Shown piece by piece: positions 370 through 32,061 of a stretch of DNA of 33,832 bases. The position numbers and the translations under genes are program-made. Under the pieces are notes generated by a model. It saw nothing but the letters and a program-made list of their open reading frames with translations, ran no database searches and was not told the DNA's origin. Source of the DNA: Oceanotoga teriensis. Its GTDB lineage: Bacteria > Thermotogota > Thermotogae > Petrotogales > Petrotogaceae. How positions within the stretch are numbered: the stretch's first letter is position 1; the number at the start of each line of letters is the position of its first letter. The DNA lies in NCBI RefSeq assembly GCF_003148465.1, contig NZ_QGGI01000025.1, positions 1-33,832 of the forward strand, read 5' to 3'.

Positions 370-405
370 ATAATAGAAAAAAAATAAAAATTTGGAGGGG
401 TAAAA

Positions 406-2292
406 ATGAAAAAAATAAAAATCTTGATAGCTATATTAATATCATTAACCTTTATTTTAACTGCCTGTACGAATGGTGTTGGAAAGGAGAGCCTTTTTTT
501 AACATTATCTATAAAACAACCCGATGCAACTAAATCTTTACAAACCAATCAAGAGTTAGAGTTTATACTTTCATTGAACCTTCCTCTTGCCAACAATGAA
601 TTGAGTAGTTTTAGTTTAGAGGTTAATTCAAAAAATGGTATTGATTATACTCTTACCCCAGACTCAACAGATGGTAAATTCGAAGTATTGAATAACAAAT
701 CTGTTAGTATAAAATATACACCAACCAAGAGTGGAGAATATACTTTTATTGGAAAGTATAGACTTGCAAATTCAGAAGAAATAAAAGCATCCAAGAATTT
801 AAAGATAGAATCAGTTAAAAATAATAATTATATAAAAGATATAAGGGTTTTAAATGGAACAGAAAAAAATATAGAAAATCAAGAGGGTAAAACATATGTT
901 ATAAAAAAAAGCGAAAAAAACTCTGCTTCTATAAAACTTGATATAGAGTTGAATGATCTCGGAGATCCTTCTTTAATAATATTTGATGAGGATGGAACTG
1001 TAGTAAAAAAAATAACTGATAAAGAAGATTTGTTTAATGCATTTCCAATTTCTGGTAAAGAAGATGATTTAAAAAAATTTATATTTGTACTTTATGATTC
1101 CAATAATCCAAATACAAACTTTGAAAATGAAGATTTTAAAGAAAAAATGTTTTTGAATTTGATAGTGTCTGATGATAATTATAATCCAGAGATAACTTAT
1201 ATGGAAAATACAGGTTCTCTTGAAATTGTTTCTGGAAATGATATTAAAGTTGAAACTATTGCAGATACTTATAATTTAAACTTTAAAGTTAAAGATCTGA
1301 AAGAATTTGGAAATACTGGCGTTTATAAAATAAAAGCATCTGTTGTTACAGATGCGAGTACAGAACAGATATTAGTTGATAAAGTATTTAACTATGGTGA
1401 ACGTTATGAGGATACCATAAGTTTAAACCTGGATACAAATATTTCTGATCAAAATATAAAAATAATAGCTGAAGATTTCATAGGAAATACTACAATAGAA
1501 AATTATAAGATCAAAATAAGTAAAACCTCATATGAAGTGAAATTACAGCCTAAATATCTTGATGGAAGAGCTTTAGAAGTTCAATCTAATAGATATGTAT
1601 ATGAGGATGATGAATCCAATAATAAATTTATAAATCTCATAGCTGAGATGAGAACTAATAAAAATATTGAACAAGATTATACATACTCTTTTGAAATATT
1701 TGATGGAGTGGATGATAAATCTTTGATGAAAGAAGACTTATTATATCAAAATAGATACACATTTCCAGCTGTTTCCTTGAAGGAAGGAGAAAATGTATTC
1801 AATTTAAAAGCAGAAATAAAAGATTCAGAAAATATTGTAAAAGCTACAGATAATGATACGATAAGGGTTTATCTTGAAGATAAAACACCTCCAAAGATAA
1901 AAAATGCAATAATAACTTTGAACAATTCTGGAAAAAATTTTGAAATCAATCCACCTAATAGAGGAAATGTGGAATATGAGACCAATACATCATGGAATTT
2001 TGATATAAATATAGAGGATACTTCTGAAATAATTTTAAATACAGATACAATTTTGGGTGAAATACTTTATGAAGGACAAAGTGTTGTTAATGATCCTACT
2101 TTTAATTATGTTTTGAGTGAAAATACACTTAGAATATCTGCACCATCTGGATTTAATGATACCTTGAAAAAAGGTAGATATATAATAAAGATTTATAGAG
2201 ATTCTTTTGGTGGAAATATTCAGATACAAGATGAAAATGGAAATTATTTAAAAGAAGGACAAGATTATATAATAGAATTTGAGGTGAGATGA
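406..2292 (+). CDS. Large lipoprotein with beta-sandwich (Ig-like) repeats, first of three
   Basis: The 628-aa product begins with a type II signal peptide: basic Lys residues at 2, 3 and 5, a hydrophobic core, and lipobox LTAC with Cys21 as the expected lipidation site. The remainder has no membrane segment and is beta-rich. Stretches such as 'KIIAEDFIGNTTIENYKI' and 'DKTPPKIKNAIITL' resemble the strand-turn pattern of bacterial Ig-like domains. No catalytic motif is recognised. Start ATG 406 has GGAGGGG five bases upstream. The stop is one base before the next lipoprotein ATG, with that gene's ribosome binding site inside this gene, so the two are translationally linked. It probably acts at the cell envelope (periplasm or toga). 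Function is unknown; it is less similar to the two following genes than they are to each other. Confidence 0.8.
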   Translation: MKKIKILIAILISLTFILTACTNGVGKESLFLTLSIKQPDATKSLQTNQELEFILSLNLPLANNELSSFSLEVNSKNGIDYTLTPDSTDGKFEVLNNKSVSIKYTPTKSGEYTFIGKYRLANSEEIKASKNLKIESVKNNNYIKDIRVLNGTEKNIENQEGKTYVIKKSEKNSASIKLDIELNDLGDPSLIIFDEDGTVVKKITDKEDLFNAFPISGKEDDLKKFIFVLYDSNNPNTNFENEDFKEKMFLNLIVSDDNYNPEITYMENTGSLEIVSGNDIKVETIADTYNLNFKVKDLKEFGNTGVYKIKASVVTDASTEQILVDKVFNYGERYEDTISLNLDTNISDQNIKIIAEDFIGNTTIENYKIKISKTSYEVKLQPKYLDGRALEVQSNRYVYEDDESNNKFINLIAEMRTNKNIEQDYTYSFEIFDGVDDKSLMKEDLLYQNRYTFPAVSLKEGENVFNLKAEIKDSENIVKATDNDTIRVYLEDKTPPKIKNAIITLNNSGKNFEINPPNRGNVEYETNTSWNFDINIEDTSEIILNTDTILGEILYEGQSVVNDPTFNYVLSENTLRISAPSGFNDTLKKGRYIIKIYRDSFGGNIQIQDENGNYLKEGQDYIIEFEVR

Positions 2293-2293
2293 G

Positions 2294-5200
2294 ATGAAAA
2301 AAACTCTTCTATTCACCATACTTTTGTTGCTATTGATGAGTTTGAGCAGTTGTATGTTTCTCGAAGATAATATTAATCCTAAGTTCAACAAGGCACCCAC
2401 TATAGAGGGGGAAAATAAGGGAATATATTCAAAGAAACTTGGTGACATCATAACTATAAATATAGATGTCGAAGATAATCAAGGAATTCAGGAGATATCT
2501 GTTTATAAAAGTGGTGATACTGTTCCTTTCACGAAATTAGTAGAAAAATCAAATAATAAAGAAATAAAGCGTTCGGAATCCATATATCTACCGCCATCTA
2601 AGGGATTTTATAGTTTGAATATAAAAGTTATAGATACAAATGGAAATGCAGTGACAGCTCCAGTTAAAAGCGGAAAAGATATAGCAAAATTTATGACTGA
2701 GGATGATATAAAACCAACTCTTCTTGAAGGTTTTGAAAAAAATGTAGAACTGGGAGAAGATTTTTCTTTTAAATTTCAAGATAAAGGTGAAGGAATAGAG
2801 AGTATTAAAATATTTGTAAACGGTGAATTACAAGAAGGAAATTATGTTATAGAATCTAAAAATTATTGGCAAGAAACTGGAACTTATTATATAAAGAATA
2901 AGTTTACTCCTGGAACATATGAATTTGTAATAAAAGTTAAAGATAAATTTGATAATGAAAAACAATGGACTAAAAATATTACTGTTGTACAAAGAGGTGA
3001 AGGGTTAGATGATTTACAGCTGAACTTAGACTATCCAAATAATATAGTTCCAAATACTCCGTACACAATAACTATAGATGCAACCAGCAATAATTATATA
3101 GAAGATGTGCTTTTTGATGGCATATCTAAGTATGGCAATTCAAAAACAAAAGAGTTTAAGGATAATGTATACAGAAACGGAGTAGATAGAACATCTGGAA
3201 TTATAGAGCATGAAATAAAATTAATTGGATGTTCGAGTGAAAAAACTGAGAAGATAAAAATAAATATAAAACAGGATGAAAATCCTGATTTTGAATATTT
3301 TGATATATATAAAATAAATGGAGAACAATTGATACCCATTGAAAAAGCGGATATATGTCCAAATGATCAGGTGATGGTTAAGTTTAAAGTAGTCGATGAT
3401 ATAGCGCTTGATAAAGTTGTTTTGAATTATGGAAGAGATGGGATTAAATCTTTTAATAATTTTAAAAATTATAAAGATTCCAATGAATATAATGAATACT
3501 ATGAAGGCGAAGAAATAATAACTGTTGATTCTAATAATTTTAATATATCTTTATATGTTAAAGATAAAAAAGGTAATTATATAGATTATAAATCAAATTC
3601 TTTATTAAAAAAGACTATAATGCTTAAAGATACGAGTACACCTGTCATAAGCTCTATTTCTTTAATACATAATAATAGGGAGATAAACGGTGTAAAAACT
3701 TTTAAAGTTGTTCAAAATGCTGATATATTTTTTAATATCAAGATAGAAAGAAAACAAACAAAAATAAAAAATGTTGAAATAAGAGTAAATAGAAAAACAT
3801 TGGCTGCAAAATCGAGTGCAAATCCTTTTATTTTTAAGACTGATACAGGGTATCCTATACCTTCTTATGATATGTCGAAGAATAGAATTAATTTTGATAT
3901 TTTTGTTGAAGATGAAGAAGGAAATACAGAGCTTAAAACAGGATATGAAATAATAATATTTGAAAATGAAAGTGATATATATATACCTAATATAAAGACA
4001 AATATAATAGATAAAATAATAATACCTGAGAATATACCTGAATTTACGGGAGTTTTTTCTGATGAAGGATTGTTGAAATTAATTTCGATACAGATCTTTA
4101 AACTTAGTGAGGGAACTATACAAGAAATAAAGAATGAGGATGGAACTTTAGATAGTTCAACATTTGTTCAAAGTGGTTCAAATGATTCTCCGCTCAATTT
4201 AAAGAATGCAACTCTATCATTATTGAATTGGACTCCAAAAGAAGATGGGTATTATAGAATAAGATTCAAAGCTATAAATACATTAAACTATTCCAATACC
4301 CTTGATATAGATGTTGAAGTTAGAAATATATCTATAAAATTAGTTCAACCACCTAATGAAAATACTTATTTTTATGGTGGTGAGATATCTATGGAAATAA
4401 GCACATTATCAGATTCTGAAAATAATTTAAAAATTTATTATGATTCTAATAATGATGGAACTTATTCTGTTGATGAAAAAACATTTGAAAAATCTTATGC
4501 CAAAGAAAATATAAGTCCAGATGGAATAATAAAGGATAGTATTAAAATAAATAATTATGATATATTTCCCAATATCGGAAGATATAAAATTGAAGTTCAA
4601 AGAGAATTTAATGGAAAGATTACAAATGATTATATACTTTTCCAACTCGAAGATGGTAATAAGTTTGAAATTTATTCTGAAAAAGGTTTAATAATAATGA
4701 GCGATACATCTATAAATGAACTTGTGGATAATGGCTTTTATTCTGATAGATATTATATACCTGTGAAAACAGAAGAAGGAAAAAATATATCAGATTTAAA
4801 TTTACAGTTGAAACTTCTGAATTATAGTGATATAAATAATGCGAAAATAAGAATAAATAATTCTAAAGATTATGAATTGGATTTAATATCCCAAGAAATA
4901 GATGATAAATCTAAGAAAAGATTGTATACTTTCAAAACAAAGATATTGGCAGAAGATGTAAATTTAAAAGGTAATACTATATCTGTATATATAAATGATA
5001 AATCAAGTCCTTCAGATATGATAGATATAAACCTATTTACAATAGGGTTAAATAATCCAGATATAAATTATTTCAAATTAAATATAGAAAATTCGAATAA
5101 TAATCAAAGTTATTCTTTGGACAAAGATAATTATGAATCTTCGGATCCAAATATAGAAATTATAAAAGATGAAGATTATAGCTTTAGTTTTTCTCAGGGA

Positions 5201-7027
5201 AGTTTCTTAGATCCTTTGGGAGTTTCTGAGATTGAAATGTATATCATAAATACATTGAATGGAAGTACCGAAACTATATTTAAAAGAGCATTTGATCAAG
5301 TAAGTGTTGATAATTGGGGATATAATTTCAACTATAATTTTATGAATAATCAGGGGAATTATAAATTAGTTATAGAACTAAGAAATTCTAGCTATAAATA
5401 CTTAGAAAATAATAATTTTCCGGATTATATGATGGGTTTAAAAGAATATACTTCAAAGAAGATAGTTAAAGATATAAGAATATTGGAAGTTCTTGATATA
5501 CTTGGTAGTATAGTTTTTAATCAAGAAGATATAAACAATAAAGGCTATGGGGTTATAAGCTCTAAATTCCCTACTTTGAATATGATAATTCAAAATGTTG
5601 ATTCTTTGAATAAATCTAAAGACAGTTTCAATGCTTATATAACTCAGAATGGTATTGATAATAAATTAAGTATCACAGAAGTTAATTTTGCACAAAAAAA
5701 TGAAATAAATAGAAACTTCTATTTGAATGTTGAAATGCCAGATTCTGTATACGATGGTGAAGCCAAACTTTCCATAGAATTCGAAAATGTTCAAGGGAAA
5801 GATTTTAAAGCTGAGACACAGATAATAATAGATAGAGAATCAAGCTATGCTTTACCTGAATTAGAATATGATACAGATAAAAATGAAATATACTTAGAGA
5901 TAATTGAAAAATTTAAATATGATATAGAAAATATATACTTTGAAATTAGAGGAAAAGGTATAGTACAGAGTAATATACTTCAAAAAGAAAATATAAAATA
6001 TTTTTATTCTTTAAATGATTTTTATCCGGGAATATACGAGATTAGACCCGTTATAGTAGATAAAAATAACAATATTTTCATAAGAAATAATTTTAAACAA
6101 ATAGAGATTAGAGGTAATATGACAGTAATAAATAATGTGAATAATTATGGTTTATATAGAGGAATTATGGCTTTAAATGATGGAGATACTTTCAAATTCT
6201 ATAATTCAAACTCTTTTAAAAGTGTTTTAATCGAAATCGATGATCAAGAGATAACTCTTCCAGCAACATCGAATAAAGAATATGCATATGATATATTTTC
6301 TAAAACAAATCCAGATGAAATCAACTCATCCTTTATAAGGATTTCTACTACAAATGGATTGGATGAAAGGGATATAATCAATTTGGATCTTTTTAAGTAT
6401 GATAGTACAAAAGAAGCGGATATAGATTCATACAATGAATTACAAATTTATTCGAATAAAAATACTGGCTTAAATCCTTTAAATATTAAATTGAAAAAAG
6501 ATATAAAAGTGAGAGCAATTTCTATAGAGGATGATGGTAGTTTATTTGAAAATCTTTCGGATCATATATTTATGAGTAAAACAAGTTTTGATAATGAATT
6601 TAGATTAAACTTACCTGATTTGAGAAAGGATATATCAGAAGATAAAAATATAAATATAACTTTATATGATATCTCTGGAAGAACTAAAGAAATTACAAAA
6701 GCGATAAAAATAGATACTAAAAAACCAGAAATCAATAATGTGAATATAATCAATGCCACTCTAAAAGACGGAGTTTATGAGATATCTAAATCAGATATAA
6801 GTTCTTTAAAAATTGAGTACAGTGTTTTTGATGATAATATTAGTGGTGGTAAGGTTAGCATAATAGTTAATGATAAGATAATTGATGTTGATGTTTCAAG
6901 TACTGAATATGATTTCAGAGATTTTGATTTTATGCCAAAAAATGAATATGAAATATATGTTTATGCAGAAGATTCTGTTAAAAACTTTGTTATGAGTGAA
7001 AAAAAGACTTTAAAAATAATAGATTAG
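2294..7027 (+). CDS. Giant multi-Ig-like-domain lipoprotein, second of three
   Basis: The 1577-aa protein has a type II signal peptide with lipobox LSSC (Cys20), then a C-M-x4-D-N sequence and a 'P-x-F-x3-P-x-IEG' linker. Beta-sandwich units follow: one at about 50-120 (starts 'VEDNQGIQEISVY', ends 'IKVIDTNGNAV'), another at about 139-232 ('DKGEGIESIKIFVNG', ends 'VIKVKDKFDNEK'), then roughly a dozen more divergent ones to the C-terminus. This 'D(N/K)-x-G(I/L)-x3-I-hydrophobic' opening and 'Y-x-hydrophobic-x-V-x-A/V-x-D-x2-GN' closing are typical of bacterial Ig-like folds. There is no C-terminal anchor, LPxTG or enzyme motif. The N-terminus aligns with that of the next gene, showing duplication. 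The ribosome binding site GAGGTGA (2281-2287) lies inside the upstream gene. A structural or adhesive envelope role is inference only. Confidence 0.8.
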   Translation: MKKTLLFTILLLLLMSLSSCMFLEDNINPKFNKAPTIEGENKGIYSKKLGDIITINIDVEDNQGIQEISVYKSGDTVPFTKLVEKSNNKEIKRSESIYLPPSKGFYSLNIKVIDTNGNAVTAPVKSGKDIAKFMTEDDIKPTLLEGFEKNVELGEDFSFKFQDKGEGIESIKIFVNGELQEGNYVIESKNYWQETGTYYIKNKFTPGTYEFVIKVKDKFDNEKQWTKNITVVQRGEGLDDLQLNLDYPNNIVPNTPYTITIDATSNNYIEDVLFDGISKYGNSKTKEFKDNVYRNGVDRTSGIIEHEIKLIGCSSEKTEKIKINIKQDENPDFEYFDIYKINGEQLIPIEKADICPNDQVMVKFKVVDDIALDKVVLNYGRDGIKSFNNFKNYKDSNEYNEYYEGEEIITVDSNNFNISLYVKDKKGNYIDYKSNSLLKKTIMLKDTSTPVISSISLIHNNREINGVKTFKVVQNADIFFNIKIERKQTKIKNVEIRVNRKTLAAKSSANPFIFKTDTGYPIPSYDMSKNRINFDIFVEDEEGNTELKTGYEIIIFENESDIYIPNIKTNIIDKIIIPENIPEFTGVFSDEGLLKLISIQIFKLSEGTIQEIKNEDGTLDSSTFVQSGSNDSPLNLKNATLSLLNWTPKEDGYYRIRFKAINTLNYSNTLDIDVEVRNISIKLVQPPNENTYFYGGEISMEISTLSDSENNLKIYYDSNNDGTYSVDEKTFEKSYAKENISPDGIIKDSIKINNYDIFPNIGRYKIEVQREFNGKITNDYILFQLEDGNKFEIYSEKGLIIMSDTSINELVDNGFYSDRYYIPVKTEEGKNISDLNLQLKLLNYSDINNAKIRINNSKDYELDLISQEIDDKSKKRLYTFKTKILAEDVNLKGNTISVYINDKSSPSDMIDINLFTIGLNNPDINYFKLNIENSNNNQSYSLDKDNYESSDPNIEIIKDEDYSFSFSQGSFLDPLGVSEIEMYIINTLNGSTETIFKRAFDQVSVDNWGYNFNYNFMNNQGNYKLVIELRNSSYKYLENNNFPDYMMGLKEYTSKKIVKDIRILEVLDILGSIVFNQEDINNKGYGVISSKFPTLNMIIQNVDSLNKSKDSFNAYITQNGIDNKLSITEVNFAQKNEINRNFYLNVEMPDSVYDGEAKLSIEFENVQGKDFKAETQIIIDRESSYALPELEYDTDKNEIYLEIIEKFKYDIENIYFEIRGKGIVQSNILQKENIKYFYSLNDFYPGIYEIRPVIVDKNNNIFIRNNFKQIEIRGNMTVINNVNNYGLYRGIMALNDGDTFKFYNSNSFKSVLIEIDDQEITLPATSNKEYAYDIFSKTNPDEINSSFIRISTTNGLDERDIINLDLFKYDSTKEADIDSYNELQIYSNKNTGLNPLNIKLKKDIKVRAISIEDDGSLFENLSDHIFMSKTSFDNEFRLNLPDLRKDISEDKNINITLYDISGRTKEITKAIKIDTKKPEINNVNIINATLKDGVYEISKSDISSLKIEYSVFDDNISGGKVSIIVNDKIIDVDVSSTEYDFRDFDFMPKNEYEIYVYAEDSVKNFVMSEKKTLKIID

Positions 7028-7037
7028 GAGGTGCTGT

Positions 7038-10000
7038 ATGAAAAATAGATTATACTTTATTATTATGCTTTTAATTTCTATGTTTTTGTTGACGAGTTGT
7101 ATGATGTTTCAAGATAATCAGCCTCCTGAATTCTATGAAAAACCATTTATTGAAGGATTTCAAAGTTCTAAAGGGGTTATAACAAAACTTTATAAGGCTA
7201 ATGATGAAATAATAATCAATTTTAAGGTTAGAGATAATCAAGCTATAAATTATGTCCAAGTTTTTAAAAGTACAGATTTGACTAAACCTATAAGGACTTT
7301 GGTCAACAATTATGGGAGAAATGATTATAAAGCTGAAGGTATAAGATTGAATTTACCTTATGATGATAGTTCATACAGAATTTTTATAGTTGTGGCAGAT
7401 ACATCTGGAAATAAAACAAGTCAAATATTAGAGGGCATAAGTTTTAATGTATCTGATGATCAGAAACCAAAAATGATTTCAGATAAAGAAAAAAGTAAAA
7501 GTGATTTATACCAAAAAATAAATGATGAAAATCTTTATAAAATGAAATTTTATTTTGAAGAAGTTGGAAGTGGAATTAAAAATTTCATAATCAATGGTTT
7601 TACGATAAATTCTAAATATGATAAAGATCCAAATAGTGTTTTAACTAGCAAAAATGGATATTATGTTGTAGAAGAAGATGATGGAATAACTCAAAGTGGG
7701 TATTTGGTATTTTTTGATAATTTGATTGTTGGAGATAATGATTTTAAAGTTTCGGTTTCAGATAATTTAAATAATAAATCTGAAAATAATCCATATTCAA
7801 TAAAAATTGAATCACCAAATCCTGAATCTGAAATAACTCTAGATCTTGATTATAAAAGGTATTATGTGATAGATGATATAACTGGTAAAACTGATAATAT
7901 AATATTAGGTATTAAAGCTGAAGATGAAATTTCACTTATAGAAAAAATCGAAATATTTATAAATGGAGTTAGAAAAGAAATAAAACTTCAAAGACCTTTA
8001 GAAAAATATTCTTATGAATTTAAAGAGATAGGACAAAAATCTTCTGAGCAGACTATAAATGTAAGGGTTGTTGCTTATAATACAGTTGGAAATAAAATTG
8101 AAAAAAATATAGAAATAAAAGTTGGAAAGAAAAAAGATCCTGTTTTGAGTTTAACACCTAAAAGTATATATAAAAATGGAATTGAAGAAGAATGGAATAA
8201 ATATACTGTAAATGACAATATATTTATAGAAGATGGAGATAAAGTATTATTTGATGTTTCAGCAGAGTCCTTTTTAGGTGCTGAAATAAAGAGCTTGGAA
8301 TTATTTGCAAGAAAAGATTTCATAAATACAACTCTTTTTAAAAAAGAATTTTCGAGAACAGAAGAAATAGTGTCTTATAAGGAAATTGTAGAAACAGAAT
8401 TTTTAGAAAAAGGAGTTTATGAAATATATTTGAAGGTTGAAACATTTGAAGATGGGATAAATAATACAGTTAAATTAAAACAAAATATAGTGTACAGTGA
8501 TGAACTATACACAGCTTCAAATTTGAAATTAAATGTAAACTTTTTTTATAATTCTAAAGAAATTTCTCAAGATATATATTATAAAACAGTTTCAGCAAAA
8601 AAAACATTTAAAATATCTAAAAATACTAATTTAAGTGTTATTTCTGAAATTAATTCTAAATTTCAAAATATTCAGAATGTAACATATATAATAAATGGAC
8701 AGGATTTTGAAGCTGATAGATATGATGCAAAGAAGAATATTTGGCAAACTAAAGAAAGATATAAGGCTTTAAATATAGGTGAGTACGAATTAAAAATTAA
8801 AATTACAGATACTTTTGATAAGGCCTATATATTGGAAGATATTTATTATATAAAAGTTGTTGAAACTGTTGAAGAAGCTTATGGATCAAGATTGAAATTA
8901 TTTCCAGATAATTATGAACCTGGAATAGGAGATCCTATAAATATAAATTATGAAATAGATGACGATTTTGGTATAGATACTTTTAAAGTTGAGGTATTTG
9001 AAAGAATCACCCCTGATAGTTCTAAGTCTATAAGTAGTAATCCTTTTATAGATAAAAAACTTGATGAAAGCAAATTAGAAAAAAATAGTAAAGAGTGGAT
9101 ATCTTATAGAACTACTGATTATGTTTTTAAATTAAGTACTATTAATATACTTGGTATAAAAACAGAACTTGAAGCTGATAAGGTTTCTATAAAGAATTTA
9201 CATCTTGAAGTTATTGAACCATCTATAGAAAATATAACTGTTAGAAGATCTCAAGACTTTATAAATTTTAAGGTTGATACTTCTGGTGGTGCGAGTTTAA
9301 CTGTTTTTGCAAAAAAAATTAAAGATGGTTCTCAAGAACTCAAATTGAGAGATGAATTGAGAGAAAACAAAGATAATACATTTACAAGATATGAATTTCC
9401 TATATTTTTGAATGCAATAACAGAAGATAAAAAATTGATATTTGATGAGCCTGGAGATTATGAAATAATCTTTAGAAGTAAGTATGGTGATTATGATAAA
9501 CAAGTTAAAAAAATTTTAACTATAAGAGATGATAGTGAAATCATATTTGAAAAACCATCATTAAAGGTCATTACTGATATAGCGACTCCAAGTGAATTAA
9601 AGTTTGAGACTTTTTTCAGAGAAGGTTATAGGGAAGATAAAGAATATGAAAATACAGAATATTTTATCCCTATAAATTATGATATATCCAATAAAACAAA
9701 TATAGATATTAGTTTTAATCTAATAGACTATAATAAACCTGAAAAGGTTGATGTATATATAAATGATAAAATTGTTTCAGAAATAATAAATCCAGAAGAT
9801 ATAAATCCTTCAACAGAATATGAAGGTAAAAATGTTTTTTCATATAAGTCTAATATATCAAAAGAAGATTTTAATATAGGAACAAATAATGTGAAAATAT
9901 ATGTGAAGAAACCTATATATGATGAATCGAAAAATATATATGAATTTAATTTAAATACTCTTGATTTTAAGAAACCAGAATTAAATGATTATGAATTTGA

Positions 10001-12326
10001 AATATCTAATATAAGAATAAAAAAAGATGAAGTATCTCAAAAATATTTTACAATAGGTAATCATGATTTGAACTTCATAAATATAGATATGCAGGATAAT
10101 CATTATATAGGAGGATTTGATATAGAACTCTATCAAAGAAACTCTGAGAATTCATATACTTTTAAAAAATCACTGTATAATGGAATGAAAGAAACTATAG
10201 AGAATAAATCTATAATAAATATTGAAAATATTAGGTCTGTTTTTGGAAGCACTGGTTTAAATATATCTAATTTTGATTTTAAAGAAGGTATAGGGCATTA
10301 TAAACTCGATATAATATCTTATGATAAATCTTATATTTTAGGACTTAAAGCAAAGACTAATTCAATAGTTAGAGATTTTATAAACTTTTATAATAAAACA
10401 GAAGATCCTATATATATTTATTTAACTGAAAATGCCAAAGCTAAAAGATTGAGTATAAATAATGACACAAATATTATAAATGATAATGAATTTAGAGCTT
10501 TGCTCGAAATAGAGATGTCTGAAGGTTTGGATGTAACAAATGTTATAAATAAAGATTCTATACAATTAAAACTTGAAGGTCCAAAAATAATACAACCAAG
10601 TATAGTTGTTGATTATTCGGGAAATAATAAATACACAATAATAGCAAAAATAAATGATTCTATAATAGATGGGAATTATACAGCAAGACTTAATTTTAAA
10701 ACTAAATACAGTGATAAATTAGAAGAAATTTCTCAGAAAATACTCATAGATGCAGATGGAACTAGAACTATTGGTAAGATTGAGAGAGTTTTTAAAAATG
10801 GTTATGGAAGAGCTTCATTTGATGTAAATATAAACACAAATAATTCTGAAAATCTTATTTGGGATGTTGATGATTATTATTTTGAGTATAATTTAAAGGG
10901 TTCATCTGATAAAAAGAAAGAAAGTGGATTTTTAATTCCATATGAGAGTAAAGCTTCATTGGATTTAGATTATTTGAAAGATGGAGAGTATGAAGTTAAA
11001 TACTATTTAAAAGATAAAGCTGAAAATTTGATTCAAAGCCAGATTACTTCATTTATAATAGAAAAGAATTTGCCAGTATTAGAAGATTTAATAATAGATG
11101 AAAATGATAGAAATAGAAATGTGTTGGCTTATAACGATCTTAGCGATGATTTTAGTAATTCCATATTATCTATTTATGATGATAATAAGCTTTATAAAAC
11201 AGTATTTTATTTATTAAATGAGAGTTATGTTTTTACAGATAGTAAAAAGTATCATAGTTTTAATTTAGGAAATATTTTATTAGAACTTAATGATACTACG
11301 AGTTATTCAGATGGAGATAAAGTTACTTTAAAAATAGATTCTACAGATATGAATTCTAATTTTATTTTAAAAGAAGTTGATATTTATAAAGATAATACTG
11401 CTCCAAATAATATATCTAAAAAGAATATTCCAGATATCATAACTAATACTGATAAAATAGTAGATTTATTCGTTGAAGATAATGTTGCCACTGAAAAAGT
11501 AGAAATAACCTTTATAGATAAAGAATTAAAAGAAAAGTATAAGGGATTTATGGAAAAACTTTCTAATGATTTTTCTATTCAAGATTGGACTTATACTTTG
11601 CCAGATCTTGGTATAGTAGAAGGAGAGTACACTTTAAAAGTAAAGGCAACGGATTTAGCCGGAAATATATCTCAATTAACTCTGCCCGATAAAGTCAAGA
11701 TAGATAATAAAAAGCCAGTAGTTAAATTTGAAATAAAAGATTTGAACCCTATAGACAATAATAGATATTATCTTAATGATTCTACTAAAAAGATATTGAG
11801 TTGGGAAGTAGAGGATTTTACAATTGATGCAACTCAAGGAACTGTAGAGATTGGTTTTAATACTTCTAAAAAGAGTGTAGTTGGAGATGAAAAGAATATA
11901 GCTTTAAAATCATTAGATGATATAGGAATTAGTTCTGATGGTGTATATGATATATATTTGAAAGCAGTTGATGAAGCTGATTTACAGATTATAACGGGAT
12001 CATATACAATAGTTCTAGATACTAATCCGCCGATAATAAATTCCGTGACTTCTGATTCTACGCCATTGATTGAAAATACAGAAGTAGCCCTTGGAGAAGA
12101 TATAGTTGAAGTTAATGTTAATTTTTCGGAGAATAATTATAGTAGTGTTTTAATTACTTATAATGGAATTCAGAAGATTGGTACTGTTGATTATAATGAA
12201 ACAGCTGGAACTGGAAATATCAGTATAAAAAATTTGGACCTTTTAAGTACATCAAAAGATTTAGTGATTAAGATAAAAGATAAATCAGGAAATGAAATCA
12301 CAAAAACATATAAAATAAAGAAATAA
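7038..12326 (+). CDS. Giant multi-Ig-like-domain lipoprotein, third of three
   Basis: At 1762 aa this is the longest gene in the window. The lipobox is LTSC (Cys21), followed by C-M-x4-D-N and 'PPEFYEKPFIEG', matching the second lipoprotein in order and spacing. The first Ig-like unit (about 56-138: 'VRDNQAINYVQVFKS' to 'VVADTSGNKT') is the counterpart of the first unit there. The C-terminal units are the most canonical: 'VEDNVATEKVEITF', 'LKVKATDLAGNISQ', 'DTNPPIINSV', 'IKDKSGNEITK'. No transmembrane segment follows the signal peptide and no catalytic motif is seen. The ribosome binding site AGGAGGTG overlaps the upstream stop codon. A strong terminator sits 9 bases after the stop. Likely an elongated rod-like envelope protein; function unknown. 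Confidence 0.8.
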   Translation: MKNRLYFIIMLLISMFLLTSCMMFQDNQPPEFYEKPFIEGFQSSKGVITKLYKANDEIIINFKVRDNQAINYVQVFKSTDLTKPIRTLVNNYGRNDYKAEGIRLNLPYDDSSYRIFIVVADTSGNKTSQILEGISFNVSDDQKPKMISDKEKSKSDLYQKINDENLYKMKFYFEEVGSGIKNFIINGFTINSKYDKDPNSVLTSKNGYYVVEEDDGITQSGYLVFFDNLIVGDNDFKVSVSDNLNNKSENNPYSIKIESPNPESEITLDLDYKRYYVIDDITGKTDNIILGIKAEDEISLIEKIEIFINGVRKEIKLQRPLEKYSYEFKEIGQKSSEQTINVRVVAYNTVGNKIEKNIEIKVGKKKDPVLSLTPKSIYKNGIEEEWNKYTVNDNIFIEDGDKVLFDVSAESFLGAEIKSLELFARKDFINTTLFKKEFSRTEEIVSYKEIVETEFLEKGVYEIYLKVETFEDGINNTVKLKQNIVYSDELYTASNLKLNVNFFYNSKEISQDIYYKTVSAKKTFKISKNTNLSVISEINSKFQNIQNVTYIINGQDFEADRYDAKKNIWQTKERYKALNIGEYELKIKITDTFDKAYILEDIYYIKVVETVEEAYGSRLKLFPDNYEPGIGDPININYEIDDDFGIDTFKVEVFERITPDSSKSISSNPFIDKKLDESKLEKNSKEWISYRTTDYVFKLSTINILGIKTELEADKVSIKNLHLEVIEPSIENITVRRSQDFINFKVDTSGGASLTVFAKKIKDGSQELKLRDELRENKDNTFTRYEFPIFLNAITEDKKLIFDEPGDYEIIFRSKYGDYDKQVKKILTIRDDSEIIFEKPSLKVITDIATPSELKFETFFREGYREDKEYENTEYFIPINYDISNKTNIDISFNLIDYNKPEKVDVYINDKIVSEIINPEDINPSTEYEGKNVFSYKSNISKEDFNIGTNNVKIYVKKPIYDESKNIYEFNLNTLDFKKPELNDYEFEISNIRIKKDEVSQKYFTIGNHDLNFINIDMQDNHYIGGFDIELYQRNSENSYTFKKSLYNGMKETIENKSIINIENIRSVFGSTGLNISNFDFKEGIGHYKLDIISYDKSYILGLKAKTNSIVRDFINFYNKTEDPIYIYLTENAKAKRLSINNDTNIINDNEFRALLEIEMSEGLDVTNVINKDSIQLKLEGPKIIQPSIVVDYSGNNKYTIIAKINDSIIDGNYTARLNFKTKYSDKLEEISQKILIDADGTRTIGKIERVFKNGYGRASFDVNINTNNSENLIWDVDDYYFEYNLKGSSDKKKESGFLIPYESKASLDLDYLKDGEYEVKYYLKDKAENLIQSQITSFIIEKNLPVLEDLIIDENDRNRNVLAYNDLSDDFSNSILSIYDDNKLYKTVFYLLNESYVFTDSKKYHSFNLGNILLELNDTTSYSDGDKVTLKIDSTDMNSNFILKEVDIYKDNTAPNNISKKNIPDIITNTDKIVDLFVEDNVATEKVEITFIDKELKEKYKGFMEKLSNDFSIQDWTYTLPDLGIVEGEYTLKVKATDLAGNISQLTLPDKVKIDNKKPVVKFEIKDLNPIDNNRYYLNDSTKKILSWEVEDFTIDATQGTVEIGFNTSKKSVVGDEKNIALKSLDDIGISSDGVYDIYLKAVDEADLQIITGSYTIVLDTNPPIINSVTSDSTPLIENTEVALGEDIVEVNVNFSENNYSSVLITYNGIQKIGTVDYNETAGTGNISIKNLDLLSTSKDLVIKIKDKSGNEITKTYKIKK

Positions 12327-12334: not shown

Positions 12335-12375
12335 AAAATACTCGGTTTCTATACAATTTAGAAACCGAGTATTTT
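12335..12375. terminator. Bidirectional intrinsic terminator
   Basis: A perfect 17-bp stem (12335-12351 with 12359-12375) encloses a 7-nt loop. The stem core is ATACTCGGTTTCTA, flanked by A-runs on the left and T-runs on the right, so it can end transcription both from the lipoprotein operon (plus) and from ackA (minus), which converge here. Confidence 0.92.
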
Positions 12376-15295: not shown

Positions 15296-16531
15296 ATGAA
15301 TTTTGAAAGTAAACTTTCTGAGGTTTCAAAAAGAATTAAGTCAAGTATTATAAGAGAATTATTAAAAGTAGCAAATAATCCAGGTATGATTTCTTTTGGT
15401 GGCGGAGTACCAGATCCTGATACTTTTCCAAGAAATAAACTTGCAGAAATATCTAAAGAAATTCTTGAAAATGAACATCGCTTTGTTTTACAGTATGGTA
15501 CAACAGAAGGAGATGTAGAATTAAAAAAAGGATATATAAATTTATTGAAAAAATATGATGGTATTGACTGGGTTAAAGATGAAAATATGGTTATAACTGT
15601 TGGTTCTCAACAAGCACTTTATTTAGTAGGAATGACATTGCTCGATAAAAATTCTTATTGTGGAGTTAGTAGACCAATATATCTTGGTGCTGCAAGTGCA
15701 TTTTCTCAAAGGGCTCCTAAATTTATAAATATACCATTGACTAAAGATGGTTTGGATTTGGAGTATTTAGAGAGAGAACTTGAAAAACTTTATGAAATTG
15801 GTGAAATAGATAAATTTAAATTTGTGTATGCAATATCAAATTTCCACAATCCTGGTGGAGTTACAATGAATCTTGAAAAGAGAAAAAAATTAGTTGAGTT
15901 AGCAGAAAAATATGATTTTCTAATAGTTGAAGATGATCCTTATGGAGCCTTGAGATTTGAAGGGAATAAAGTTCCAAGTATATATTCTCTTGCACCTAAT
16001 AGAACTATATTGTTGAATACTTTTTCGAAAGTTTTAGCTCCTGGATTGAGACTTGGTGTCATCATAGGAGATGAATTCTTAATAAGAAAGATTACCATGA
16101 CTAAACAGGCCGCAGATTTGTGTTCTCCTTCATTGACTCAAAGACTTGCTGCAAGATACATTCAAAGATATGATTTATACGATGAAATAGCTCCTACAAT
16201 TAAGTTATATGGAGAGAAAAAAGATACTATGATGAAAGCTATAGAAGAAAATCTTGGAGATATAAAAGATATAGATTGGACAAGACCTGAAGGTGGACTT
16301 TTTACTTGGATAACTTTACCAAAAGGAATAGATACAATGGAAATGTTTGAGATGGCTAAAATGGAAAAAGTGTTGTATATTCCTGGAGAAGCATTTTATG
16401 TTGATGAACCTGATAGAAATACTATGAGAATATCTTTCTGTTTACCATCACATGAAGAAATACATGAGGGTATGAGAAGACTTAGAAGAGTAATAGATAA
16501 ATATGCAAAAGAAAAAGGTATTGAGATATAA
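15296..16531 (+). CDS. PLP-dependent aminotransferase, class I/II (LysN/Aro8-like)
   Basis: The 411-aa fold-type I aminotransferase converts an amino acid to its 2-oxoacid. Visible signatures are 'MISFGGGVPDPDTFP' near the N-terminus, 'YGTTEGDVELKKG', 'SNFHNPGGVT' (Asn185), 'VEDDPYGALRF' (Asp213/Asp214, Tyr216) and 'NTFSKVLAPGLRLG' with Lys245 as the PLP lysine. The family includes 2-aminoadipate, aromatic and branched-chain aminotransferases, so substrate cannot be read from sequence. Being first in an operon with acyl kinases and a valine-type oxidoreductase, it probably starts the fermentation of branched-chain or aromatic amino acids. AAGGGGGT stands just upstream of ATG 15296. The next gene starts 14 bases after the stop. 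Confidence 0.9.
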   Translation: MNFESKLSEVSKRIKSSIIRELLKVANNPGMISFGGGVPDPDTFPRNKLAEISKEILENEHRFVLQYGTTEGDVELKKGYINLLKKYDGIDWVKDENMVITVGSQQALYLVGMTLLDKNSYCGVSRPIYLGAASAFSQRAPKFINIPLTKDGLDLEYLERELEKLYEIGEIDKFKFVYAISNFHNPGGVTMNLEKRKKLVELAEKYDFLIVEDDPYGALRFEGNKVPSIYSLAPNRTILLNTFSKVLAPGLRLGVIIGDEFLIRKITMTKQAADLCSPSLTQRLAARYIQRYDLYDEIAPTIKLYGEKKDTMMKAIEENLGDIKDIDWTRPEGGLFTWITLPKGIDTMEMFEMAKMEKVLYIPGEAFYVDEPDRNTMRISFCLPSHEEIHEGMRRLRRVIDKYAKEKGIEI

Positions 16532-16545
16532 ATAGGAGGGGAGTA

Positions 16546-17613
16546 ATGTATAAAATACTTACGATAAATCCTGGATCAACATCTACTAAAGTAGCTGTTT
16601 TTGAAGATGAGAAGATGATATCTTCTGAAACTATAGAACATAAAAGTTCTGAACTAAAGAAACATGAAAATATAATGGATCAAATTGGTTTTAGAAAAGA
16701 AGCGATTCTAAAATTTTTGGATAAAAATGGACTTAAAATCAATGATATTCATTCAATAGCTGCAAGAGGGGGGATTCTCCCCCCATTAAAGAGTGGAACT
16801 TATTTAGTAAATGAAGATATGGTTCATTATTTAAAATTTGAAACTAAGACAGAACATGCTTCGAATCTTGCGGCAGTTATAGGCTATGAATTATCTGATA
16901 ATAAAATACCTGTTTATGTAACAGATCCTGTGTCTGTAGATGAATTTTGTGAAGAAGCACGTATTTCTGGAATTAAAGAACTTAAAAGAAAAAGTTTATT
17001 ACATGCTTTGAATATGAAGATAGTTGCAAGAAAAGCTTCTGAAGAAATAGGAAAAGAATATAATTCTTGTAATTTTGTAATAGCACATCTCGGTGGTGGA
17101 ATTTCAGTTGGAGCTCAAAAAGAAGGAAAAATGATAGATGTAAATAATGCAAATGATGAAGGTCCTTTTAGTCCTGAAAGGGCTGGAGAATTGCCTATGG
17201 GGGATTTGTTGAAAATAATATTCTCTGATTTATACAATCATAAAGAGTTAAAAAAGAGACTCATCGGTCATGGTGGATTGGTAGGATATCTTGGTACTAA
17301 TGATTTAAGAGAAGCTTTTAAAATGGCTCAAAAAGATGAAAAAGCTGAACTTGTAATAGAAGCTATGGCATATCAAATTGCGAAAGAAATAGGTGCAATG
17401 ACTGTTGTTTTAAATGGAGAGGTTGATGCGATAATAATAACTGGAGGTCTTGCAAATTCTGAACCTTTCATAAATTTAATAAAAGAAAGAGTTTCTAAAT
17501 TAGGATTAATAATGGTTTATCCAGGATCTTTTGAAATGGAAGCACTTGCCTTAGGAGCTTTTAGGATACTTAATAATTCCGAAAGTCCTTTGAATTGGAG
17601 TAAGGAGGTTTGA
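16546..17613 (+). CDS. buk: Butyrate/branched-chain acyl kinase, copy 1
   Basis: The 355-aa ASKHA-fold kinase transfers phosphate from an acyl phosphate (butyryl, isobutyryl, isovaleryl) to ADP. Family motifs are 'INPGSTSTKVAVFED', 'RGGILPP', 'TDPVSVDEF', 'SLLHALNMK', 'HLGGGISVGAQ', 'GPFSPERAGELP' and 'ITGGLANSE'. The length is standard for butyrate kinase and shorter than acetate kinase. AGGAGGGG lies just before ATG 16546. The stop lies a few bases from the start of ptb, whose ribosome binding site is inside this gene. The 'RGGILPP' codons form an unusual G6/C6 hairpin (see findings). A second paralogue flanks the other side of ptb. Confidence 0.94.
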   Translation: MYKILTINPGSTSTKVAVFEDEKMISSETIEHKSSELKKHENIMDQIGFRKEAILKFLDKNGLKINDIHSIAARGGILPPLKSGTYLVNEDMVHYLKFETKTEHASNLAAVIGYELSDNKIPVYVTDPVSVDEFCEEARISGIKELKRKSLLHALNMKIVARKASEEIGKEYNSCNFVIAHLGGGISVGAQKEGKMIDVNNANDEGPFSPERAGELPMGDLLKIIFSDLYNHKELKKRLIGHGGLVGYLGTNDLREAFKMAQKDEKAELVIEAMAYQIAKEIGAMTVVLNGEVDAIIITGGLANSEPFINLIKERVSKLGLIMVYPGSFEMEALALGAFRILNNSESPLNWSKEV

Positions 17614-17615
17614 AT

Positions 17616-18518
17616 GTGAGTTTAACTAAATTATCAGATCTTATAGATATGAACAAAAGCATAACACCCAAAAAGAAAGTCGCTGTAGCAGTTGCCGAAG
17701 ATGATGTTGTATTAGAAGCTTTGAACAAAGCTGTAGATCTTGGCATTTGTGAAGCTGTTTTATTTGGGAATGAAGATGAAATAAAGAAAATTTCTACAGG
17801 ATTAAATATCGATTATAAAAAATTTGAGATAAGAGATTTTAAAAATAAAAATGATGCGATTAAAGCTACTATAAAATCAGTATCTGATGGAGAAACAGAT
17901 CTGCCAATGAAAGGTAAGATAACCACTGGGGAACTTTTATCTGTTTTTTTAAAAGAGGAGTATGGATTGAGAACTAAATCTACTATGAATCTTATAAGTG
18001 TTTTTGAAATTAATAAATATCATAAACCTTTGATAATGACAGATGGTGGAATGGTTATTGCTCCAGATTTAAATCAAAAGATTGATTCCATAAATAATGC
18101 GGTTAAAATTTCAAAAAAAATAGGTGTTGAATTACCAAAAGTTGCCATAGTGGCAGCACTTGAAAAAGTTAATCCCAAAATGCAACCCACTGTTGATGCA
18201 GCTATAATTTCACAGATGAATAGAAGAGGCCAAATAAAAGATTGTATTGTTGATGGACCTTTTGCAATGGATAATGCTGTTTCAAAAGAAGCGGCTAAAC
18301 ATAAAGGTATTGAATCTGAAGTTGCCGGAGATGCAGATATAATAATAATGCCAGATATAGAAGCTGGGAATATCTTTTATAAATCTATGGTATTTTTATC
18401 AGATGCCAAGATTGCAAGTACTATACTTGGAGGTAAAAAACCAATAGTTTTAACTTCAAGAGCCGACTCTAATGAAGCAAAATTATATTCGATTGCATTA
18501 TCGGTTTTAATGTCATAG
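17616..18518 (+). CDS. ptb: Phosphate butyryltransferase
   Basis: This 300-aa enzyme of the PTA/PTB family converts acyl-CoA + phosphate to acyl phosphate + CoA, supplying the neighbouring kinases. It shows 'VAVAVAEDDVVLEAL' near the N-terminus, 'LPMKGKITTGELL', 'NLISVFEI', 'MTDGGMVIAPDL', 'VDGPFAMDNAVS', 'GDADIIIMPDIEAGN' and the C-terminal 'ILGGKKPIVLTSRADS' that binds phosphate/CoA. I chose GTG 17616 because AAGGAGG (17602-17608) is 7 bases upstream. A TTG at 17610, overlapping the buk stop, is also in frame but leaves only one base of spacing. It sits between two butyrate kinases, forming a complete acyl-CoA to acid + ATP module. Confidence 0.95.
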   Translation: MSLTKLSDLIDMNKSITPKKKVAVAVAEDDVVLEALNKAVDLGICEAVLFGNEDEIKKISTGLNIDYKKFEIRDFKNKNDAIKATIKSVSDGETDLPMKGKITTGELLSVFLKEEYGLRTKSTMNLISVFEINKYHKPLIMTDGGMVIAPDLNQKIDSINNAVKISKKIGVELPKVAIVAALEKVNPKMQPTVDAAIISQMNRRGQIKDCIVDGPFAMDNAVSKEAAKHKGIESEVAGDADIIIMPDIEAGNIFYKSMVFLSDAKIASTILGGKKPIVLTSRADSNEAKLYSIALSVLMS

Positions 18519-18528
18519 GGGTGATGAG

Positions 18529-19596
18529 ATGTTTAGAATACTCGTTATAAATCCAGGATCTACTTCTACTAAATTGGCCATATATGAAGATGAAAATGAA
18601 GTTTTAAATCAAACTGTTAGACATAAAACAGAAGAAATAGCTAAATATGACACTATAACTCATCAATATGAGTTTAGAAAAAATGTGATAGAAGAATTTT
18701 TGAATAAAAGTGGATTTCCACTTGCAAGTTTTTCAGCAATAATAGGAAGGGGAGGACTTTTAAAACCTATTCCTGGTGGAGTATATAAAGTCAATGATAA
18801 TATGATTGATGACTTAAAAAAAGCGATATATGGAGAACATGCATCAAATCTTGGGGCAATAATTGCTAAAGAATTGGCAAAATCTGTAAACATAGAAGCT
18901 TTTATCGCTGATCCTGTTGTTGTCGATGAAATGATGGCTGTTGCAAGAATATCTGGACATCCAGATTTTGAAAGGAAATCTATTTTTCATGCTTTAAATC
19001 AAAAAGCTATTGCAAGACAGCTGGCTGAAAAGCTTGGGAAAAATTATGAAGATATGAATATCATAGTTGTACATATGGGCGGAGGTATATCAATAGGTGC
19101 TCATTATAAGGGAAGAGTTGTAGATGTTAATAATGCACTTGATGGAGATGGACCTTTTACTCCTGAAAGATCTGGTACATTACCTTTAACAGGTGTTTTA
19201 GAACTTGGATTTAGTGGTGAATATACTTTATCTGATATGAAAAAACTGATAAAAGGTAATGGAGGTATGACCTCTTATTTAAATACGAATGATGCTCAAA
19301 TGGTTCAAAAAATGATAAAAGATGGAGATGAGAACGCCTTATTGATTTATAAATCTATGGCATATCAAATATCTAAATGGATAGGAAAAATTTCAGCAGC
19401 TCTTGATTTTGAAATAGATGCAATAGCTTTAACTGGTGGTATTGCATATGATGATAATTATATAAATAAATGGATAAGAGAAAAAGTGGAATTTCTTGCT
19501 CCAATCTATGTTTTTCCAGGTGGAGATGAAGAACTCGCACTTGCTTTATCGGCTTTAAGGGCTTTAAGAGGTGTGCAAGAAATTAAAGTTTATTGA
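18529..19596 (+). CDS. buk: Butyrate/branched-chain acyl kinase, copy 2
   Basis: The 355-aa kinase has the same length as copy 1 and the same motifs: 'INPGSTSTKLAIYED', 'GRGGLLKPIPGG', 'ADPVVVDEMM', 'SIFHALNQKAIAR', 'HMGGGISIGAH', 'GPFTPERSGTLP' and 'LTGGIAYDDN'. Most catalytic-region positions agree between copies but the rest has diverged clearly, so this is an old duplication and the two may prefer different acyl chains. GGGGTGATG stands upstream of ATG 18529, 10 bases after ptb. As I recall, Thermotoga maritima also has two buk genes flanking ptb, which supports both the annotation and the organism assignment. Confidence 0.94.
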   Translation: MFRILVINPGSTSTKLAIYEDENEVLNQTVRHKTEEIAKYDTITHQYEFRKNVIEEFLNKSGFPLASFSAIIGRGGLLKPIPGGVYKVNDNMIDDLKKAIYGEHASNLGAIIAKELAKSVNIEAFIADPVVVDEMMAVARISGHPDFERKSIFHALNQKAIARQLAEKLGKNYEDMNIIVVHMGGGISIGAHYKGRVVDVNNALDGDGPFTPERSGTLPLTGVLELGFSGEYTLSDMKKLIKGNGGMTSYLNTNDAQMVQKMIKDGDENALLIYKSMAYQISKWIGKISAALDFEIDAIALTGGIAYDDNYINKWIREKVEFLAPIYVFPGGDEELALALSALRALRGVQEIKVY

Positions 19597-19606
19597 GGTG
19601 TTTTAA

Positions 19607-20272
19607 ATGATTGAAAAATATAAGAATAATATATTCATAGGAATGTTTGGATCAGGAAAAACAGAAATTGCTATAAATACATCTTTAAAGTTAAGGGAAA
19701 AGTTTGAAAATGTTGCTATTGCCGATATAGATACAATAAGTCCTTATTTTAGAACGAGAGATGTTATTTCTGAATTAAAAGAAAAAAATATAAAGGTTGT
19801 AACGCCTCCTGAAAAATATATGCATGCAGATGTTCCCATAATTCCCCCATCTGTAGGAGGTTATATTACTAATCCTGACTATAGACTTGTTATAGATGTT
19901 GGTGGAAATGATGATGGTGCTGTAGTCTTAGGATCTTTAAATAACTTTGTTAAAAAGGCTGATTTTGCTTTATACTTTGTTATAAATACAAATAGGCCTT
20001 TTACTGATACGGAAGAAAAAATAATAAAAAATATACAAAATTTATCAGCTAAAGCAAGGTTGAGTATAGATTATCTGGTATGTAATTCAAATATTATGGA
20101 AGAAACGACACAAGAAATAATTACAAATGGTGAAAATATATTAAAAAATGTTTCTGAAAAATTAGGAATTCCTGTTGCTTTTACAGTTGTTGAAGAAAGT
20201 ATAGAAAAAAACATTAAAACTAATTATGAAAAATTTATTTTAAAAAGATACATGTTAAAAGCCTGGGATTGA
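19607..20272 (+). CDS. P-loop ATPase of the MinD/SIMIBI type, function unknown
   Basis: The 221-aa protein has a P-loop at 12-19 (GMFGSGKT), then 'VAIADIDTISPYFRTRD' (a Switch-I-like Asp region as in MinD/CobQ proteins) and 'LVIDVGGNDDGAVVLG' in the Walker B/Switch II position. There are no membrane segments, no Fe-S cysteine set and no DNA-binding domain. It lies 10 bases after buk copy 2 and directly before the ferredoxin gene, well inside the operon, so it is co-expressed with the oxidoreductase. A role in assembly, cofactor loading or regulation of the 2-oxoacid oxidoreductase is plausible from position only. I do not recognise a characterised family member. Confidence 0.8.
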   Translation: MIEKYKNNIFIGMFGSGKTEIAINTSLKLREKFENVAIADIDTISPYFRTRDVISELKEKNIKVVTPPEKYMHADVPIIPPSVGGYITNPDYRLVIDVGGNDDGAVVLGSLNNFVKKADFALYFVINTNRPFTDTEEKIIKNIQNLSAKARLSIDYLVCNSNIMEETTQEIITNGENILKNVSEKLGIPVAFTVVEESIEKNIKTNYEKFILKRYMLKAWD

Positions 20273-20287
20273 TAAGGAGGGAATGGA

Positions 20288-20509
20288 ATGGAATTTAAAA
20301 ACCTTGTGGAGATAGACCAAGAGAGATGTAAAGGTTGTGGATTATGTATAAATGCATGCCCTAAAAAGGTTCTTGGTTTTTCTGAAGGATATAACTCTAA
20401 AGGTTATCACCCATCCGAAGTACAGAGACAGGAAGATTGTATAGCCTGCGGATTCTGTTATCAGATGTGTCCTGATGTATGTATAACAGTTAAAACACTT
20501 GCTAAATAA
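20288..20509 (+). CDS. 2x[4Fe-4S] ferredoxin, delta subunit of 2-oxoacid oxidoreductase
   Basis: The 73-aa bacterial-type ferredoxin has two complete C-x2-C-x2-C-x3-C-P motifs: Cys14/17/20/24 and Cys51/54/57/61, with one extra Cys65. It is the electron-transferring subunit (VorD/KorD-like), passing electrons from the TPP active site in the beta subunit to free ferredoxin. AAGGAGGGA precedes two closely spaced ATGs; the in-frame one is at 20288. The stop is 14 bases before the alpha subunit start. Confidence 0.92.
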   Translation: MEFKNLVEIDQERCKGCGLCINACPKKVLGFSEGYNSKGYHPSEVQRQEDCIACGFCYQMCPDVCITVKTLAK

Positions 20510-20523
20510 AGGGAGGGAAGTTC

Positions 20524-21585
20524 ATGTCAGAAAAAGTAATGGTAAAAGGCACGGAGGCTATTGGAGAAGCTGCTTTAAGGGCGGGATGTAGACATTATTT
20601 TGGATATCCAATAACACCTCAAAGTGAACTTACTGAATATATGGCAAGAAGATTGCCGGAACTAGAAGGAGTATTTTTACAAGCTGAAAGTGAAGTTTCA
20701 GCAGTTAATATGATATATGGTGGAGCATGTACAGGGAAAAGAGTTATGACTTCTACATCGTCTCCTGGTTTTTCACTTATGCAGGAAGGTATGTCTTATA
20801 TTGCTGGAGCAGAATTGCCATCGGTTTTTGTTAATGTTGTTAGAGGTGGCCCTGGTCTTGGAGATATACAACCGGCTCAATGTGATTATTTCCAGGCTAC
20901 AAAAGGTGGAGGACATGGAGATTATAGACTTGTTGTTTATGGACCAGAATCTTTACAAGAAGCGGTAGAGTTGACTATAAAATCTTTTGATATTGCAGAT
21001 AAATATAGAAATCCTGTTTTAATACTTGCAGACGGTATGCTTGGTCAGATGATGGAACCGGTAAGTTTCCCAGAATTTAAAGATTTAAATTCATTTGTTG
21101 ATCATTCTGATTGGGCAATGGTTGGTACAAAGATGGAAAGAGATGCTCATAGGGTTACTTCTTTTAATATAGATCCTTATGGACTTGAAAAGATGAATAT
21201 AAAATTTCAAAAGAAATATAAAGAGATAGTTGAAAATGAAAAGATGTATGAAGAATATATGCTTGATGATGCTGAAGTTGTTATTGTTGCGTATGGCACA
21301 ATAGGAAGAATAGCTAAATCTGTTGCTAAAATGGCAAGAGAAAAAGGTATCAAAGCAGGAGTTTTTAGACCGATAACATTATGGCCATATCCATACGAAG
21401 CATTGGCTAAACATACAGATAAAGCAAATATGTTTTTTACAGTTGAAATGAGTGCTGGTCAAATGATAGAAGATGTAAAACTCGCTGTAAATGGTAAAAA
21501 ACCAGTTGAGTTTTATGGGAGAATGGGTGGAGTTGTACCAACACCAGGAGAAATATTTGCTAAATTAATGGAATTAGTTAAATAA
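20524..21585 (+). CDS. vorB: 2-oxoacid:ferredoxin oxidoreductase alpha subunit (VorB-like)
   Basis: The 353-aa protein holds the pyrimidine-binding and transketolase C-terminal-like domains of a 2-oxoacid:ferredoxin oxidoreductase, which oxidatively decarboxylates 2-oxoacids to acyl-CoA. Visible: 'HYFGYPITPQSELTEYM', 'QAESEVSAVNMIYGGA', 'TSTSSPGFSLMQEG', 'VVRGGPGLGDIQPAQ', and a second domain beginning 'AEVVIVAYGTIGRIAK' near 260. Length and layout match the separate alpha subunits of VOR/KOR rather than pyruvate enzymes with fused subunits. VOR (branched-chain) versus KOR (2-oxoglutarate) cannot be settled from motifs; the butyrate kinase neighbours favour branched-chain substrates. Confidence 0.93.
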   Translation: MSEKVMVKGTEAIGEAALRAGCRHYFGYPITPQSELTEYMARRLPELEGVFLQAESEVSAVNMIYGGACTGKRVMTSTSSPGFSLMQEGMSYIAGAELPSVFVNVVRGGPGLGDIQPAQCDYFQATKGGGHGDYRLVVYGPESLQEAVELTIKSFDIADKYRNPVLILADGMLGQMMEPVSFPEFKDLNSFVDHSDWAMVGTKMERDAHRVTSFNIDPYGLEKMNIKFQKKYKEIVENEKMYEEYMLDDAEVVIVAYGTIGRIAKSVAKMAREKGIKAGVFRPITLWPYPYEALAKHTDKANMFFTVEMSAGQMIEDVKLAVNGKKPVEFYGRMGGVVPTPGEIFAKLMELVK

Positions 21586-21597
21586 GGAGGGAATAAT

Positions 21598-23835: not shown

Positions 23836-23846
23836 ATTTTTCCTCC

Positions 23847-32009: not shown

Positions 32010-32061
32010 GAACATTACCCCCTTTTATACTCGTGTTGTGCAATATAGTATATCGTATACA

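Follow-up and report, generated by a model that had tools for sequence, protein, structure and literature searches.

Bacterial proteins that combine Ig-like domains with a lipid anchor are well known. Among the described systems closest to the three-gene operon analysed here are the SiiE-type giant adhesins (2yn3 and 2yn5), which also consist of tandem bacterial Ig-like domains. A profile of the giant proteins of the operon family matches 2yn3 (E 1.6e-6), and the model of the gene 3 product superposes on SiiE with a VIA Z score of 9.9 over 267 residues at 6.4 Å. However, the giants of the operon are lipid-anchored at the N terminus, are made together with a small five-Ig lipoprotein and share only ~15% identity with SiiE in the structural alignment. 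Type I secretion genes were not recognised in the window (the whole stretch of Oceanotoga teriensis DNA analysed, 33,832 nucleotides) or beside those homologues whose neighbourhoods were listed. The extender region of a large adhesion protein (6xi3) also matches the gene 3 model (VIA Z 10.1), a likeness that is only loose because the r.m.s.d. is 21 Å.

The OmpL47-type proteins of spirochaetes (NCBIfam NF047446 and NF047441) are likewise surface proteins of tandem β domains. The OmpL47 domain model matched six of ten giants of the family and the Leptospira OmpL47 protein model matched two of the ten, but gene 3 scores 33.5 bits against NF047446, under the curated cut-off of 40, and that model has no such operon partner. 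Bacterial alpha-2-macroglobulins are giant lipoproteins of β-sandwich domains too, and differ from the operon proteins in their thioester motif and domain (see below).

Known proteins of the toga, the outer sheath of Thermotogota, are very few: Omp-alpha, Omp-beta and some attached hydrolases. Omp-alpha (OmpA1) and SlpA offer a precedent for periplasmic rods in an envelope of this kind: they are coiled coils fastened both to the cell wall and to the outer membrane, in SlpA through an SLH domain and a β-barrel (PMC9388160, PMC3387000). The operon proteins, by contrast, are predicted to be lipid-anchored Ig-like rods, and neither the Pfam and NCBIfam scans nor the all-β models revealed a coiled-coil rod with a cell-wall-binding SLH domain.

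Operon layout and lipid anchors

The window is an entire contig, and gene 1 is preceded by 405 bases only. The features of the operon are as follows.

394..400, plus strand: ribosome-binding site GGAGGGG of gene 1, from the sequence
406..2292, plus strand: gene 1, 628-residue lipoprotein with five predicted Ig-like domains (ORF, AlphaFold model, homologues)
406..468, plus strand: signal peptide II and lipobox LTA-C21 of gene 1; the cysteine is invariant in the homologue alignment
2294..7027, plus strand: gene 2, 1577-residue giant Ig-like lipoprotein, lipobox LSS-C20 (ORF, homology to gene 3)
7027..7032, plus strand: ribosome-binding site GGAGGT of gene 3, from the sequence, overlapping the gene 2 stop codon by 1 base
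7038..12326, plus strand: gene 3, 1762-residue giant Ig-like lipoprotein, lipobox LTS-C21, predicted ~15–16 Ig-like units
8724..12323, plus strand: AlphaFold-modelled part of gene 3 (residues 563–1762), all-β, mean pLDDT 77
11580..11705, plus strand: Big_13 match in gene 3 (residues 1515–1556), above cut-off in the Pfam scan
12335..12375, both strands: 17-bp hairpin with T-rich flank, putative terminator common to the operon and a convergent acetate kinase gene

The three genes are co-directional, with intergenic gaps of 1 base and 10 bases, and the original prediction, made from the sequence alone, had their lengths and spacing exactly right; its placement of the DNA in Thermotogota is likewise supported. 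It had also proposed a single transcript. The coupling of the genes and the strong, bidirectional hairpin, which starts 9 bases 3′ of gene 3, back this proposal and support the view that the three genes form one operon ending at the hairpin.

Lipoboxes had been predicted for all three proteins, and they are clear (LTAC, LSSC and LTSC) and retained across homologues. An N-terminal positive stretch, a hydrophobic core and a lipobox cysteine are present in the three window proteins and in all 40 homologues checked (28 of 28 small, 12 of 12 giant); the lipobox is therefore not a product of chance.

Predicted structures of the three proteins

Searches of Pfam, NCBIfam and PDB sequences with the single window proteins returned almost nothing: Big_13, in gene 3, is the sole Pfam match above cut-off, and none of the three proteins is described along its whole length by a model in Pfam or NCBIfam. 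Across the homologues, 8 of 10 giants match Big_13, and Big_7 matches 11 of the 15 small proteins. The enrichment of simple Ig-like sequence motifs over shuffled sequences is only modest.

AlphaFold models cover the whole gene 1 protein and residues 563–1762 of gene 3; gene 2 and residues 1–562 of gene 3 were assessed by homology. The input alignments held 11 and 14 homologues, and confidence in the models is moderate. Gene 1 is predicted to form five Ig-like β-sandwiches (mean pLDDT 70), with borders, taken from the strand pattern of the model, at residues ~30–138, 139–257, 260–373, 376–491 and 494–628. The modelled part of gene 3 is predicted to be an unbroken series of such sandwiches, its domain borders read in the same way. 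Foldseek matches for both models are strings of Ig-like domains of all sorts (titin, contactin, cilium proteins, macroglobulins). The VIA-align and Foldseek lists barely cover some parts of the models, where other folds may occur.

Structure prediction, which had been suggested as a check on the original prediction, thus gave all-β Ig-like strings, with no enzyme or transporter fold in the models of gene 1 and gene 3 residues 563–1762. The claim that the proteins contain little but tandem β-sandwich units is borne out by the models for these parts; for the rest it is a judgement from homology. Taken with the lipoboxes and the Foldseek matches, the models agree with the expectation of rod-like lipoproteins that lack a catalytic domain, both rod shape and lipid anchoring being predicted properties.

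The two giants are related to each other. BLAST aligns the first 280 residues of gene 2 and gene 3 at 30% identity, and a gene 3 profile finds the gene 2 homologue of another genus (G007) over positions 3–1657 (E 9e-113). Judged by these alignments, the two giants are paralogous over their whole length, being alignable end to end via relatives.

Distribution of the small–giant pair

All three genes occur in the same order in two other Petrotogaceae genera, represented by the nearest relative, G004 (43, 42 and 44% identity), and by G007 (22–28%), where the flanks of the operon differ from those of the window. In a fourth Petrotogaceae genus (G001), the small gene is accompanied by a single giant. 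A profile search found the same pair in a second, Pseudothermotoga-like family (G038, G058, G067, G069, G072 and G044), in several genomes of which the small and giant genes share a 4-base overlap. Phylogenetic spread had also been suggested as a check, and the pair proves to extend over four Petrotogaceae genera and this second family.

Of the 11 genomes whose giant is full length or nearly so, 10 have the small and giant genes side by side, amid unrelated flanks; the count includes G044, although its small gene is broken, and in the eleventh genome (G011) the locus is cut by a contig end. Many partial matches in the genome searches were generic Ig or propeller hits and were left out of the counts. 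Where present, the giants are mostly intact reading frames of 1600–1840 residues. No giant-type protein occurs in 92 of the 103 Thermotogota genomes, among them most Petrotogaceae, and in G070 the small gene is retained and the giant absent. In G044 (L087, 11547–13042), the small gene is interrupted by in-frame stops and the giant is still open.

The operon proteins diverge fast, as surface proteins do. They are 40–43% identical to their G004 relatives, compared with 69–87% for ten neighbouring metabolic genes in the same two genomes; this divergence is in the range of that of the flagellar hook proteins FlgK (51% identity) and FlgL (60%) between these genomes.

A pair of lipoproteins of 616 and 1812 residues was also seen in a different family (G039, L094, 3251–10647, minus strand). 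It matches the giants over ~400 columns only, and may be a distant relative or an independent look-alike.

A second partner of the small lipoprotein

The small lipoprotein is far more widespread than the giants. A 15-sequence profile, with a counting threshold of E below 1e-40, finds a complete or almost complete copy in 34 of the 103 Thermotogota genomes, and two types of partner are found beside it. In type A the partner is the giant Ig lipoprotein. In type B it is a secreted protein of ~840–935 residues with an N-terminal PQQ-type β-propeller and a dockerin-like C terminus, present in 19 genomes of three other families and usually followed by a gene for a lipoprotein of ~200 residues (example loci: L083, 10037–12562; L085, 6112–8853; L120, 4016–6697). 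At E below 1e-180 the propeller is found in those 19 genomes only, always beside the small gene. None of the 103 genomes has both a giant and a propeller partner, and the small gene stands without either in G043, G053, G091 and G070. In G074, the small lipoprotein gene and the propeller gene are separated by a transposase-like gene (L130, 6908–8155).

We call the C terminus dockerin-like because of its paired D-x-N-x-D-G motifs, together with profile matches that are weak (2y3n, E 0.0026; in one member, Pfam Dockerin_1, E 0.09). A search of 14 genomes for a cohesin partner gave no match above cut-off.

The tree of the small protein follows the taxonomic families. Its deep forks lack resolution; one or two changes of partner both fit, and a single origin of the giant-partner type is compatible with it (AU p 0.38). 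By sequence, gene 1 is the constant member, with the same five-domain plan throughout, and the large second gene appears to be the lineage-variable part. A broader reading, which we offer as a possibility and with some doubt, is that these genes form a Thermotogota-specific surface module that is part of the surface equipment of the toga: a constant five-Ig, lipid-anchored base would carry a large partner that can be exchanged. In Petrotogaceae and the Pseudothermotoga-like family this partner would be the giant Ig rods, and in a Fervidobacteriaceae-like family and two further families a β-propeller protein with a dockerin-like tail, together with a small lipoprotein.

We found no paper on these proteins in the literature searched, which left out most subscription journals, and the phylum-wide family of small lipoproteins with its exclusive partner types seems to be undescribed. 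Full length in a third of the genomes of the phylum and mostly accompanied by an exclusive partner, the small lipoprotein offers an entry point to the envelope proteins of the toga, and comparing its two partner types could test the role of the base.

Proposed assembly and alternatives

The pairing of the small lipoprotein with one or the other large partner suggests an assembly of the cell envelope or surface that is as yet undescribed. Our leading reading, to which we give somewhat less than an even chance, is a lipid-anchored envelope assembly with gene 1 as its base and the giant Ig rods extended from it, most likely at the outer face of the toga. The five-Ig lipoprotein would act as base or adaptor. 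The duplicated giants would fold as chains of ~14–16 Ig-like units and, at ~4 nm per unit, project as rods of ~50–65 nm. Coupled translation would co-produce the three proteins for assembly at the membrane, and the gene order suggests that small and large proteins may form a physical complex. The rods would most likely reach the outer toga face and serve there as a stalk or as a scaffold for adhesion. Other families of Thermotogota would use this base to carry the β-propeller protein with its dockerin-like tail.

We infer the outward orientation and the adhesive or scaffold job. With moderate confidence, we place the giants at the outer envelope face, because they diverge faster than their metabolic neighbours, come and go between genera and have adhesin stalks among their nearest structural relatives. 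An N-terminal lipid anchor alone fits a periplasmic place equally well, and strings of Ig-like domains fit many jobs. To our knowledge, it is not established that Thermotogota export lipoproteins to their surface.

The main rival, which we consider unlikely but worth weighing, is a periplasmic spacer or tether: anchored in the cytoplasmic or outer membrane, the rods would span the wide periplasm and hold or space the toga. Their predicted length suits this job, the lipobox comes without a recognisable surface-export signal, and proteins of this sort exist in deep-branching diderms (SlpA, Omp-alpha; PMC9388160, PMC3387000). However, togas are described as general in Thermotogota (PMC3387000), yet the giant type is missing from all but 11 of the 103 genomes, which weakens the case for a spacer. 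The loss of the giant next to a retained small gene in G070, the broken small gene in G044 and the fast divergence of the operon proteins also argue against it. The original prediction had named both toga spacers and surface adhesins as plausible jobs; patchy presence, gene loss and fast divergence disfavour an essential spacer, and we favour a non-essential, probably surface-facing role.

It is improbable, in our estimate, that the proteins are instead glycan-binding or substrate-capturing surface lipoproteins, with Ig-like units acting as carbohydrate-binding modules that feed uptake or degradation nearby. Polysaccharide hydrolases are attached to togas (PMC3387000), a GH9 cellulase and a chitodextrinase have fibronectin-like modules that the profile of the small family matches, gene 2 has a weak CBM77 match, and the partner in other families ends in a dockerin-like tail. 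However, Pfam scans of the window proteins and homologues gave no carbohydrate-binding module above cut-off, and no hydrolase or sugar transporter gene was recognised adjoining the operon, whether in the window, in G004 or in the Pseudothermotoga-like genomes, the one exception being an ABC-transporter fragment at the G007 contig end.

A protease trap of the alpha-2-macroglobulin type, built of macroglobulin-like β-sandwiches, is largely refuted and was rejected: size and lipid anchor are similar, many alpha-2-macroglobulins and complement proteins are among the Foldseek matches and one small homologue has a weak A2M_BRD match, but those matches are generic β-sandwich strings (TM ~0.1–0.2), the CxEQ thioester motif is absent from all three window proteins, the modelled part of gene 3 has no helical thioester domain and no penicillin-binding protein gene adjoins. 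Decaying or selfish surface genes without present function, to which patchy presence and one broken copy might point, are hardly credible given intact frames of the giants in most genomes that carry them and a gene order conserved over two families.

Flanking genes

Genes for acetate kinase and serine hydroxymethyltransferase directly follow the operon on the opposite strand (Pfam and NCBIfam scan). The original statement that no enzyme lies nearby was thus wrong as worded, although the two genes belong to a separate, unrelated unit. In G004, aldolase-like and acetate-kinase-like genes lie upstream of the operon and point away from it. A functional tie between the operon and adjoining metabolic or flagellar genes was considered and rejected because the flanks differ between genera.

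Elsewhere in the window, positions 31737–32015 (minus strand) hold a SpoVS gene (Pfam E 1.5e-37); we know of no sporulation in Thermotogota. An amino-acid fermentation cluster (15296–22892, plus strand) has the same order in G004, at 69–87% identity. It comprises an aminotransferase, a butyrate kinase–phosphate butyryltransferase–second butyrate kinase series, a P-loop protein, a short ferredoxin-like protein and three genes that resemble 2-oxoacid oxidoreductase, named by eye. Finally, two fast-evolving ORFs of 165 and 270 residues (23353–24659, minus strand), 34% and 45% identical to their G004 counterparts and with no Pfam match, adjoin csrA-, fliW-, flgL- and flgK-like flagellar genes.
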